A DNA stretch of 64,000 bases, from contig JACPVI010000044.1 of assembly GCA_016191815.1 (NCBI GenBank), forward strand, positions 1-64,000, given 5' to 3'. The notes under the pieces are model-generated. The model was not told where the DNA came from, made no database searches, and saw nothing but the letters and a program-made list of their open reading frames with translations. The number at the start of each line of letters is the position of its first letter. Position 1 is the first letter of the stretch. Both the position numbers and the translations under genes were made by a program. Below, in pieces: positions 25,490 to 29,423 of the stretch. Source of the stretch: Myxococcales bacterium (GTDB taxonomy: Bacteria; Myxococcota; Myxococcia; Myxococcales; Myxococcaceae).

Positions 25490-25930
25490 TCAGCCAACGC
25501 CGCGGGCGGAAAACGGGTTGCGGATCAGCACAGTGCCGTAGAGGCGCCCTTCTTGGAAGTCCTCGGACCAAAGCTCGCCCAGCCCGTAGTGCTCCGCGTA
25601 GGCCCACAGGTGCGCATCGAACCAAGGAAGCCCGTAGGCGGCCGCCCCTCGGAGCGCGGTGCGCATCAAGGCGTCGTTCGGGTAGAGCACCTCGAAAGTG
25701 GAGAGCATCTCCTCGGCCTCGCGCCGCGCTTCGTTCGGAGCCAGCAAGGGAGCCTCCTTCCCCAGCGGGCGAGTGACCGCTGCGAGGAACTCGACGATCG
25801 CCTGGTGCGGGACACGGACCGAATCACGGGCGATGCCCTCCACGAGAAGCCGCGAGGCGGTCCGCTGCTTTTCCGGGAAGCGAAAGTCGTAGCAGTAGAC
25901 CAGGACGTTGGTGTCAATGAGGGCGGCCAC
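25490..25930 (-). CDS. PIN-domain toxin (VapC-like)
   Basis: A 146-residue PIN ribonuclease. The acidic active-site residues are visible in ALIDTNVLVYCYD, IVEFLAAV, WFDAHLWAYAE and LWSEDFQEG. VapC toxins cleave tRNA or rRNA when their antitoxin is degraded. Its ATG overlaps the antitoxin gene end by 17 bases, the usual translational coupling of type II pairs. The C-terminal YGTVLIRNPF matches the common end of this PIN subfamily. Confidence 0.9.
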   Translation of the reverse strand: MAALIDTNVLVYCYDFRFPEKQRTASRLLVEGIARDSVRVPHQAIVEFLAAVTRPLGKEAPLLAPNEARREAEEMLSTFEVLYPNDALMRTALRGAAAYGLPWFDAHLWAYAEHYGLGELWSEDFQEGRLYGTVLIRNPFSARGVG

Positions 25931-26198
25931 GGTCGTACAGCTCCTCGCGGGTCCAGCCCCGGCTCGCCGGCCTGGCCGCCCTTCGCCCGGCCTGCCGGCG
26001 GCGCTGCCGTTGCATCGCCGCCCTAAAGAGCGCCAGGCGCGCCTTCAGATCCACTGTGGGCTTCGTAGCCCTGGCGGGCAGTACGCGAATGCTCTCTCCG
26101 GCGGGCAGCCACTCGAGCTCGTCGCCCGGGCGGATGCCGTATCGCTCGGCAATCGACTTGGGGACCGTCACCTGGAGCTTGGTGGTGACCTTGCCCAT
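25914..26198 (-). CDS. AbrB/MazE-type antitoxin
   Basis: A 94-residue protein with a SpoVT/AbrB swapped-hairpin domain (KVTTKLQVTVPKSIAERYGI, then RPGDELEWLPAGESIRV) and a very basic C-terminal tail (RQRRRQAGRRAARPASRGW) ending in EELYDRGRPH, the typical toxin-wrapping segment. It should repress its own promoter and neutralise the PIN toxin encoded immediately downstream. No other gene is in the pair. Confidence 0.88.
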   Translation of the reverse strand: MGKVTTKLQVTVPKSIAERYGIRPGDELEWLPAGESIRVLPARATKPTVDLKARLALFRAAMQRQRRRQAGRRAARPASRGWTREELYDRGRPH

Positions 26199-26207
26199 GT
26201 CCTTACT

Positions 26208-26528
26208 CTAGTAAGGACGGCGCCCTTGCTCAACCGGCCTCAACTTCTTCGTCCCCGGAGATGCGCCCGCGGGCCTGTGGGTCGGGCCTCGCTTCCAGGC
26301 TGGAAGAGCGACTTGCGCATCCGCGCCCAGCACCGCCTCGTGGCAAGCGGCGCAGCTCACTCCCGCCCGGTGATGCTCCCCGTGCGAGAAGGTGATTCGA
26401 CCTCCGCCGAATTCCACCTCCCCGGGGCGCGTGGACGGCGGGCATCCGAAGATGAGCCAGCCGGCTGCCAGCAGCGTTGGAAGCACACGGCCGCTCAAGC
26501 GCCGCCGCAAGCCAGCCTCTGGCGACAC
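26208..26528 (-). CDS. Small monoheme cytochrome-like lipoprotein
   Basis: A 106-residue protein with a lipoprotein signal (LLAAGWLIFGC) and one CAACH heme-binding motif within ITFSHGEHHRAGVSCAACH, the pattern of c7/class III cytochrome units where a distal His precedes the motif. The C-terminal 35 residues are basic and featureless. It lies 36 bases after the decaheme gene on the same strand and probably serves as an accessory electron carrier. It is short compared with usual c7 cytochromes, so it may be a truncated relic. Confidence 0.7.
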   Translation of the reverse strand: MSPEAGLRRRLSGRVLPTLLAAGWLIFGCPPSTRPGEVEFGGGRITFSHGEHHRAGVSCAACHEAVLGADAQVALPAWKRGPTHRPAGASPGTKKLRPVEQGRRPY

Positions 26529-26564
26529 CCTGCCTTCGGCGCGACTCGCCCCGCACGCATCTCC

Positions 26565-28700
26565 CTATCTCCCATGCACCCGCCTCACCGCGAGCTGCCG
26601 CCCCTCGGCGTGACAGGTGGCGCAGGCCTCCGCCCCCGCCGCGCTCGTCATCGTGCTCGCATGCGCCACCGCCTGGACCGAGTCGTGGCAAGAGGTGCAC
26701 GCCGCCGTCGCCGGCGGAATCAGCCTCAGCGCGCTCACCACCCTTGCGTCGCAGAACCGATCGTCGTCCGCCGCCGGCTCCTCGGTGCACGCAAGCTCCT
26801 CCTCGCGCGAGGGCAACACCCCCGCCGGCAACGGCAAGACGAAGCTCTCCGCCGCGTGGCAGGTGCCGCAGTCCCGCCGGTCTCCCGGGAAGCGGACCTC
26901 GCCGAAGTCCACCGGCGTCCCCTCCGGGTTGCCACGGGTCGGCACCGGGAAGCCCCCTAACACGTACGGCTTCTGCGAGAGGTGCTCCCCGGTGTGGATC
27001 TTGTGGATCATCACCTTGAAGTGCACCGACTGCGCGGTCACGGTCGCGCCCTCCACCCGCGCGACCCGCTCGTCGTTGGTGTTGTTGGCGTTGTGGCACA
27101 TCACGCAGTACTCGGGGTTCCGCCGAGTCCCGCCGTGCGCCGCGAGCTCCAGGTGACAGCGGTTGCAACGCGCCACCTCCACCACCGTCCGCCTCGGTGA
27201 GGGCGGGCCAGCCCCCACCGCCGCGTACGCTACCGGGTTGAACGCCGAAGCCGTGGGCCCCGTCGGCCCACCCCGCCGGAAGGTGCCCTCCAGCCCGAAG
27301 GCGAACGTCCCCGCCGCCCCCGCCGGCAGACGCGCCACGTCCGGGAAGACGTACCGGAAGGTTCCGCTCGCCGCATCCACCGCCAAGAGGCTCCCCGCCG
27401 CCCCGGCTCCCTGGATGGTCGCGGTGGCGAAGCTCGCGTAGTCCTCCGTCGGCCCCGCCCACGTCGCCGCCAACCGCGCAAGAGGCGCCGTGACGACGTC
27501 CAGCGGGCGCCCATCCGCCTCCACCTTGAAGGTCAGCGTCGCCGGCTGCCCCGACGCCACGTTCGATACCTCGAGAATGGTCAGCTCAAGGCTCGGCGCC
27601 CCCGGAGCCTGTGCCGGAGTCCGGTGGCTCTCGGCCACACCGACGAGCCCCCCCGAAGGCGGGTGGCAGAGCGCGCACTGCGCGTCGTCCAGTTGCACCC
27701 CGGCCTTGTGGAGCGTCATCCCCGGAGGCACCGGCTCGATGAAGGCCGTCAGGTCATGGCACGAGCCGCATGCCGCGCGGGACGGACGCGTGAGCCATGC
27801 CTCCGCCTGCGCCCCCAGGTGGCAGGTCTGACAGTTCCGGATGTCCTGCGGAAAGGCGACCGTGGAGAAGTCGAATACCGTCTGCCGGAAGCCGATGATC
27901 CGGTACGGCGTCCCCGCCCTCACGCTGGGTAGGTCCTCGCCCCGGTGGATCTTGTGGACCATCACCCGGAAGTCCACCGTGTTGCCGGTGTCCGGGTCCA
28001 AGGCCTGCGCGCTGTGGCAGAGCACGCACAGCGCCGTTTCCCGGCGCGCGCCTCCGTGCGCCTCGAGCGGGTTGTGGCAACTGTTGCAGGCCTGCGTGCG
28101 CACCACCTCGCGCGTCGCGCCGACCTCCCCTCCCGCGGGGATGAAGTGGAACACCGCGTTTGAGACGAACAGCCGCTCGTCCACCGTCCGGGTGGCGTAG
28201 GCGCCCACCGCGTGCATTGCCGAGAGGTCCGTCTGCGCCTTGCTCCCGAAGGTGTAGGTGAAGGATCCCGGGGCCAGCTCGGCGAACGTCCCTCCGGAGT
28301 CGGCCGCCGGCTGGACCGAGGTCTGGCCGGTGATGGGGCTGGTCTGCGGCCGGGTGGTGAGCGCGGTGTACTGGCCGGGCACCAAGGAGGCGTCCTTTGC
28401 CAGCCGCGAGAGCACGAACTGCGGATTGATCTGTCCCGGCGTTCGCTTGCCCTCGCGGTCCAACCGCACACCTTGCTCGTCGGTCAGCGAGAACGCCACC
28501 GTCACCGTCCCGTCCCCGGCAACCGCGGCGGAGCTGATCGACAGCTTCAGTCCCGGCCCAGGAGGCGCTCTTGGAGGTACCGCCGCCGGCCCAGCCGGTC
28601 CAGGCTCTCCCGGCGGTCCGGAGGGCCCCTCCGGGCCCCGCGGCCCCTGGCAAGCCCAAAGCGCGCACCAAAGCGCGAGACCCCAGCAGAGCCTGGTCAT
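26565..28700 (-). CDS. OmcA/MtrC-type decaheme surface cytochrome lipoprotein
   Basis: A 711-residue protein from ATG 28700 (the 24 residues before it in frame are not signal-like). The signal ends at ALWAC, so it is lipid-anchored. It continues with a collagen-like QGPRGPEGPSGPPGEPGPAGP stretch of 21 residues, cited only by its GPxGP pattern. Ten CxxCH motifs are present in two groups of five (CNSCH, CVLCH, CQTCH, CGSCH, CALCH; CNRCH, CVMCH, CGTCH, CTSCH, CATCH), with beta-rich domains between. This is the OmcA/MtrC layout used for electron export to metals or electrodes. MtrA/MtrB-like partners are not in the window. Confidence 0.92.
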   Translation of the reverse strand: MTRLCWGLALWCALWACQGPRGPEGPSGPPGEPGPAGPAAVPPRAPPGPGLKLSISSAAVAGDGTVTVAFSLTDEQGVRLDREGKRTPGQINPQFVLSRLAKDASLVPGQYTALTTRPQTSPITGQTSVQPAADSGGTFAELAPGSFTYTFGSKAQTDLSAMHAVGAYATRTVDERLFVSNAVFHFIPAGGEVGATREVVRTQACNSCHNPLEAHGGARRETALCVLCHSAQALDPDTGNTVDFRVMVHKIHRGEDLPSVRAGTPYRIIGFRQTVFDFSTVAFPQDIRNCQTCHLGAQAEAWLTRPSRAACGSCHDLTAFIEPVPPGMTLHKAGVQLDDAQCALCHPPSGGLVGVAESHRTPAQAPGAPSLELTILEVSNVASGQPATLTFKVEADGRPLDVVTAPLARLAATWAGPTEDYASFATATIQGAGAAGSLLAVDAASGTFRYVFPDVARLPAGAAGTFAFGLEGTFRRGGPTGPTASAFNPVAYAAVGAGPPSPRRTVVEVARCNRCHLELAAHGGTRRNPEYCVMCHNANNTNDERVARVEGATVTAQSVHFKVMIHKIHTGEHLSQKPYVLGGFPVPTRGNPEGTPVDFGEVRFPGDRRDCGTCHAAESFVLPLPAGVLPSREEELACTEEPAADDDRFCDARVVSALRLIPPATAACTSCHDSVQAVAHASTMTSAAGAEACATCHAEGRQLAVRRVHGR

Positions 28701-28844
28701 GATCCCCTCCCGGCCATCGCGGCGCGCCAGTCGCCTCAGCCTGCAGGTGGGGACGCCCGCCCGCCGCGTCAATCCGCGCCGGAGAGGATGCGTCGCCCGG
28801 TCAACCTCCCGAGCGGCTGGCCACCGCCATCGCTCGCCCGGCCA

Positions 28845-29423
28845 CTACTGCGTCGTGCCTTGGCCGGTCCAGTCCACGTTCTGGAAATGACTCGCGGTGG
28901 GCCGGGTGACCTTCACGAAGTTGAAGCTCGGGAAGTCGGGTGAGGAGCTTGCCGCGTGGCAGCCGTTGCAGCCGGCGATGGCCTGGTCGTACGCGGTGGC
29001 GAAGTCCACCGGGTCCTGCGAGGCGATCGCGTTGTCCAGGCGGGCGAGGAAGGAGGTCGCGAACGCCTGGAGCAACGGCGCGCGGGCTGGGCGCGTGACT
29101 TCGGCCACCGCCTGGATCTCCCTCATCTCCTTCACCTGGTACCTGGCCATGTCCCAGTTGTTGGACTGGCCCGCGAACCACAGGTTGTTGAAGCGGATGT
29201 TGTACTCGATCATCACCGTGCCCAGGCCGGACTGGATGTTCCAGAGAGCCAGGCTCCGGTCGACCGTGTTCAGCTTCTGGTTCACCAGCGCCTCCGCGTC
29301 AGAGGCGGTGATTCCTCCCCCGCCCCCCGCCGGTCCCTCAGGCCCCGGAGGGCCTTCCGGGCCCGCGCAAGCCATCTGCACGACGACGGCAGCGCCAATC
29401 GCCAGTTTGCTCAAGGTTGACAT
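28845..29423 (-). CDS. Collagen-like monoheme lipoprotein
   Basis: A 192-residue protein. The signal ends at VVVQMAC, followed by GPEGPPGPEGPAGGGGG, a short collagen-like stretch matching the one after the lipid Cys of the decaheme cytochrome. The rest is helical, with one CNGCH heme motif near residue 157 preceded by a four-helix-like segment (RYQVKEMREIQAVAEV), suggesting a cytochrome-c'-like or cbb3-accessory-like bundle. It is first in a minus-strand set with the decaheme and small cytochrome genes and probably belongs to the same electron-transfer system. Confidence 0.78.
   Translation of the reverse strand: MSTLSKLAIGAAVVVQMACAGPEGPPGPEGPAGGGGGITASDAEALVNQKLNTVDRSLALWNIQSGLGTVMIEYNIRFNNLWFAGQSNNWDMARYQVKEMREIQAVAEVTRPARAPLLQAFATSFLARLDNAIASQDPVDFATAYDQAIAGCNGCHAASSSPDFPSFNFVKVTRPTASHFQNVDWTGQGTTQ

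Follow-up and report, generated by a model that had tools for sequence, protein, structure and literature searches.

The question raised by this locus is what a collagen-like segment might do at the N terminus of a surface cytochrome, between its lipid anchor and its first folded domain. Cytochromes of the MtrC type serve as the principal model of extracellular electron transfer, and work is under way to engineer them onto materials. The window analyzed here, the first 64,000 nucleotides of contig JACPVI010000044.1 from a Myxococcales bacterium (GenBank assembly GCA_016191815.1), encodes three heme proteins on the minus strand between positions 26208 and 29423. Their probable operon order is a monoheme cytochrome (28845 to 29423; here called the partner), a decaheme cytochrome (26565 to 28700), and a small monoheme protein (26208 to 26528). 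Open reading frames of the VapBC type, a PIN-domain toxin-like protein and an AbrB-like antitoxin, lie directly downstream of the cytochrome genes (25490 to 26198, minus strand).

The decaheme protein, a c-type cytochrome of 711 amino acids with an ATG start at position 28700, matched TIGR03507 over its full length (profile positions 2 to 672 of 672; 455.1 bits against a cut-off of 209.3) and PF22113 at 183 bits. It also matched OmcA (4lmh) and MtrF (3pmq) by sequence, and with 10 CxxCH motifs and a lipobox, LWAC, it has the features of an OmcA/MtrC-family lipoprotein. Its N terminus reads MTRLCWGLALWCALWAC-Q-GPRGPEGPSGPPGEPGPAGPA. The tether, residues 19 to 39 (28584 to 28646, minus strand), consists of seven uninterrupted Gly-X-Y triplets, GPR GPE GPS GPP GEP GPA GPA, the first Gly being at Cys+2, and none of 100,000 shuffles that preserved the composition of the 30 residues following the Cys reached this phasing. 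AF2 predicted no structure for residues 1 to 47 and placed the first beta strand from about residue 52; the heme domains were modeled poorly (mean pLDDT of 46.9), and the model was used for the start of the beta domain alone.

The partner (192 amino acids, 28845 to 29423) begins with MSTLSKLAIGAAVVVQMAC-A-GPEGPPGPEGPAGGGGG and has one CxxCH motif. Its tether, residues 21 to 37 (29313 to 29363, minus strand), comprises four GPx triplets, GPE GPP GPE GPA, followed by GGGGG; AF2 gave a pLDDT below 50 over residues 15 to 37, and the Gly phasing was reached in 77 of 100,000 shuffles of the same kind. The GPxGPxG repeats that a preliminary description had reported behind the lipobox Cys of both proteins were thus confirmed by direct reading and by the shuffles. 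They had been placed right after the Cys, which is correct as to their N-terminal position, with one residue (Q or A) separating the Cys from the first Gly. The Cys of the partner does have repeats behind it, but the lipobox around it is imperfect, with Gln at −3, and its lipidation is therefore less certain, so that we call it a probable lipoprotein. The small monoheme protein directly downstream of the decaheme gene (26208 to 26528, minus strand), probably in the same operon, is a c7/c3-like lipoprotein with one CxxCH motif and a lipobox (IFGC); it has weak, subthreshold matches to cytochrome c7 families and no collagen-like tether.

We read the partner as a class II, cytochrome c'-like cytochrome on the basis of its predicted fold and of profile comparisons. 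AF2 modeled a four-helix bundle (helices 40 to 86, 90 to 110, 112 to 135, and 138 to 159) with high confidence over about residues 70 to 160 and with the heme motif, CNGCH, at residues 152 to 156. A profile built from five sequences, the partner homologs, matched cytochrome c' chains at an E value of 1e-5; the partner itself did not match PF01322, and its homologs scored 16.6 to 26.0 bits, below the cut-off of 26.5. The best structural match by VIA was a small soluble cytochrome c of Kuenenia (6r6m; Z score of 12.7, root mean square deviation of 2.3, 102 aligned residues), which is borderline for helical bundles. Like class II c-type cytochromes such as cytochrome c' and Kuenenia Kusta0087 (6r6m), the partner has a predicted four-helix bundle and a single CxxCH motif near the C-terminal end; unlike them, it is probably membrane anchored, has a GPxGP tether, and falls below PF01322 detection.

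Relatives of the partner are rare, being found in 7 of 195 genomes of the phylum with its own genome counted. Conservation of the GPxGP stretch in orthologs, on which the preliminary description had made its reading depend, was found for the decaheme protein but not for the partner, since all four partner relatives examined (L055, L056, L133, and L134) lack it. A tether on a partner adjoining a tethered MtrC-type protein is the more unusual part of this locus, because the four detected relatives are without the motif. The idea that a shared tether marks a conserved protein pair was rejected, given the rarity of partner homologs and the lack of the motif in the four examined.

It was also stated in the preliminary description that no MtrA or MtrB is encoded in the window, and this statement extends to the whole genome, which is 98.8% complete: nothing in it matched MtrB/PioB (PF11854), and no protein reached the cut-off for the DmsE/MtrA type (TIGR03508). 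The decaheme gene accordingly has neither the adjacent MtrA nor the MtrB/PioB porin of an MtrCAB system. In Shewanella salipaludis (L115), by contrast, a tethered MtrC is encoded inside a normal mtrCAB operon, with MtrB scoring 401.8 bits.

Other loci of the same genome were noted as well. A second OmcA/MtrC-family protein, in a frame of 1,131 amino acids, has a 13-triplet tether (contig C29, L019:10329-13721), and a hemeless lipoprotein with IPT/TIG and NHL domains has a collagen-like tether of 14 triplets that scores 27.3 bits against Pfam Collagen, for which the cut-off is 27.2 (contig C7, L020:3139-5550). Contig C55 has a C-terminal fragment from a third gene of the MtrC type, split over two frames (L021:4257-8240); after it come a monoheme cytochrome, an open reading frame that is barrel-like but has no Pfam match, a lipoprotein with 13 CxxCH motifs, and a cytochrome with 5, and it is possible that this cluster encodes a non-MtrAB outer membrane conduit. 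Contigs C27 and C28 (L022 and L023) contain clusters of large multiheme open reading frames with up to 19 CxxCH motifs. In several Myxococcota metagenome-assembled genomes (L104 and L107 to L111; for example, L109:12821-14581), a lipoprotein with 22 to 23 CxxCH motifs, and not mtrAB, comes after the MtrC-type gene.

The breadth of the tether was assessed in OmcA/MtrC-family loci from the class and phylum of the window, together with named genomes, the latter scanned with a five-row alignment. This yielded 107 distinct family open reading frames, of which the 94 with a detectable lipobox served as the denominator. At least four uninterrupted Gly-X-Y triplets behind the Cys were present in 69 of the 94, with a range of 4 to 34 triplets and a register from Cys+2, in a sample that is weighted toward Myxococcota, has phylogenetically nonindependent rows, and was drawn with a simple home-made lipobox score that missed several true members. 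Of the others, 9 had poly-Gly, 3 had three triplets, and 13 had neither; four Acidobacteriota members that had no detectable lipobox likewise lacked the tether. A position-by-position count over the 94 members, which presupposed no run, placed Gly at Cys+2, +5, +8, and so on to +26 in 50 to 76% of them, compared with mostly 5 to 22% at off-phase positions up to Cys+28 (26% at Cys+1). Among the proteins without poly-Gly, 69 of 85 had at least four triplets, versus a mean of 3.7 and a maximum of 11 in shuffles.

The preliminary description had regarded a collagen-like stalk as unusual on extracellular cytochromes, which these counts contradict; the Gly-X-Y tether is instead a general property of the known family and not a peculiarity of the window. 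It occurs in Myxococcota, Gammaproteobacteria, Betaproteobacteria, and Holophagae, with named tethered loci in Shewanella (S. salipaludis), Woeseiaceae, Halorhodospira, Ramlibacter, Sterolibacterium, Geothrix, and Myxococcota, and a restriction to Myxococcota was therefore rejected. Short, Pro-poorer versions are present in the Protein Data Bank sequences of the Shewanella proteins MtrF (CGGSDGDDGSPGEPGKPP), MtrC (CGGSDGNNGNDGSDGGEP), OmcA (GGSDGKDGEDGKPGVVG), and UndA (GGSDGKDGEDGKPGPVG) and in MtrC from S. baltica, as found in the MtrCAB crystal (CGGSDGNDGNPGEPG). The tether is nearly specific to the OmcA/MtrC family. None of 23 hemeless lipoproteins from the same loci had it, and it was present in only 1 of 36 heme lipoproteins from outside the family, probably a frameshifted family member; these controls led us to reject a general lipoprotein habit. 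We found no description of a family-wide tether in the openly licensed papers searched, and within that literature it is apparently undescribed.

Two variants of the region were also observed. Poly-Gly runs of roughly 8 to 16 residues take the place of Gly-X-Y in a group of OmcA/MtrC-type proteins whose hosts belong to a different taxonomic family within the order of the window (L027, L036, L039, L040, L058, L059, and L062). In the tether region of others, Gly-X-Y or GTN repeats are interspersed with a small repeated Cys module, CTVTDNGDGTxTITCxDGTxVTVxDG (L041, L043, L046, L049, L089 to L091, L094, and L096).

Within the tethers, Gly was conserved over its neighbors. With Gly at Cys+2 and +5 as the sole condition, later in-phase Gly codons were identical in 156 comparisons, synonymous in 193, and nonsynonymous in 75, so that 75 of 424 changed the amino acid, against 534 of 896 X and Y codons (181 identical, 181 synonymous, and 534 nonsynonymous); as the pairs are phylogenetically nonindependent, these counts indicate a direction and not a rate. 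Because Gly is kept while X and Y drift, the Gly register is under selection. Tether length is labile while the phase is kept: two close relatives at 95% identity (L025 and L026) have 12 and 11 triplets, a difference of one whole triplet. In the 69 tethered proteins, Pro makes up 34% of X positions versus 12% of Y positions, and at these positions Gly is rare (about 2.4%).

The decaheme protein resembles Shewanella OmcA, MtrC, MtrF, and UndA (decaheme or undecaheme; TIGR03507 and PF22113) in its lipoprotein architecture, its two beta and two heme domains, and the Gly-X-Y run behind the Cys, but its tether is longer and rich in Pro (GPx), no mtrAB adjoins it, and its genome has no MtrB. The repeats resemble those of collagen-like surface proteins (Scl1/Scl2, Burkholderia Bucl, and Legionella Lcl) in having Pro mainly at X and no need of hydroxyproline; whereas those proteins have long collagen domains, the window has four to seven triplets as a linker behind a lipid anchor. 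Geobacter PgcA is also an extracellular cytochrome lipoprotein with Pro-rich low-complexity segments, but these are Thr-Pro repeats, which have been proposed to bind mineral (PMC5732950), and not Gly-X-Y.

We think it likely, though well short of certain, that lipid-anchored surface cytochromes of the OmcA/MtrC type share this segment throughout the family as an N-terminal tether and that it acts as an extended spacer. The Gly-X-Y segment would be extended, polyproline-II-like, and solvent exposed, connecting the acylated Cys with beta-domain I; by our own estimate, seven triplets would span roughly 6 nm at full extension. Such a spacer may permit export of the multiheme head, which would sit on or above the outer membrane surface while remaining anchored. 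The class II monoheme partner, with its shorter tether of the same kind, is probably an electron transfer partner active on the same face of the membrane. The position and phasing of the tether, how widely it occurs, its family specificity, and the conservation of Gly over X and Y are observed; lipidation, exposure at the surface, an extended monomer, and exchange of electrons by the two proteins are inferred. A Gly-X-Y, Pro-rich stretch does separate the Cys from the first folded domain in both proteins, and a spacer keeping the hemes off the membrane, one of the two functions proposed in the preliminary description, fits. Against this reading, Gly at each third residue and a preference for Pro at X are more than a purely flexible linker would require. 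Triple-helical bacterial collagens are also reported to have less Pro at Y (PMC13138384), so a helical state is possible, above all in the long members.

The other proposed function, a true collagen triple helix that trimerizes the decaheme cytochrome as a rigid stalk, either as a homotrimer or with the partner, we regard as unlikely. It would account for the strict Gly phase, the preference for Pro at X, and the diversity of X and Y around conserved Gly; the triple helices of bacterial collagens are stable without hydroxyproline (PMC4066190), and the longest relatives (32 to 34 triplets) exceed the Pfam Collagen cut-off of 27.2 bits, with 46.9 for L034 and 50.9 for L066. The window tethers, however, have seven and four triplets, compared with the 79 triplets plus a trimerization domain of Scl2 (PMC4066190), neither window protein matches Pfam Collagen (PF01391), and poly-Gly and GTN versions take the place of the repeats in relatives. 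In the MtrCAB crystal complex, one MtrC sits on one MtrAB, with 20 hemes in all and one copy per subunit, although that MtrC bears a short Gly-X-Y tether, and soluble MtrC has been described as monomeric (PMC7198977). Trimerization through the short window tethers is thus unsupported, because of the few triplets, the lack of a Pfam Collagen match, the substitutes in relatives, and the single-copy MtrCAB. A version centered on the long-tether members is speculative and rather improbable: their 20 to 34 triplets would form lipid-anchored triple-helix stalks that group three decaheme heads off the outer membrane, at up to about 30 nm by our estimate, with the window tethers as the short extreme of this arrangement.

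That the stretch serves chiefly for export or sorting, as an unstructured N terminus required for surface display (for example, by type II secretion or a sorting rule for outer membrane lipoproteins), with spacing secondary, is doubtful to a somewhat greater degree. A fixed start behind the acylated Cys and near specificity to a surface-exposed family would suit such a signal, and S. oneidensis OmcA and MtrF reach the surface via type II secretion (PMC6929479). Yet S. oneidensis MtrF is still secreted without its lipid anchor and residues 22 to 182, so that the N terminus is not required for type II recognition, and the C terminus matters most (PMC6929479); moreover, the tether can be anything from 4 to 34 triplets long and is missing from some members. 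That the repeats are functionless, near-neutral products of slippage in GC-rich 9-bp units, tolerated behind a signal peptide, seems very improbable. Whole-triplet length changes between close relatives such as L025 and L026 are what slippage would produce, but in-phase Gly is kept far better than X and Y, with mostly synonymous differences between Gly codons, and the tether is nearly specific to one family across several phyla and absent from the other lipoproteins encoded at its loci.

The N-terminal linker sets the distance and mobility of the cytochrome at the membrane and has received little attention in the literature searched. Shared by Shewanella, Myxococcota, and others and nearly specific to the OmcA/MtrC family, the tether offers a testable variable, and with its 4 to 34 phased triplets it may serve as a design variable for the heme-to-mineral distance and for the reach of surface cytochromes to their partners.
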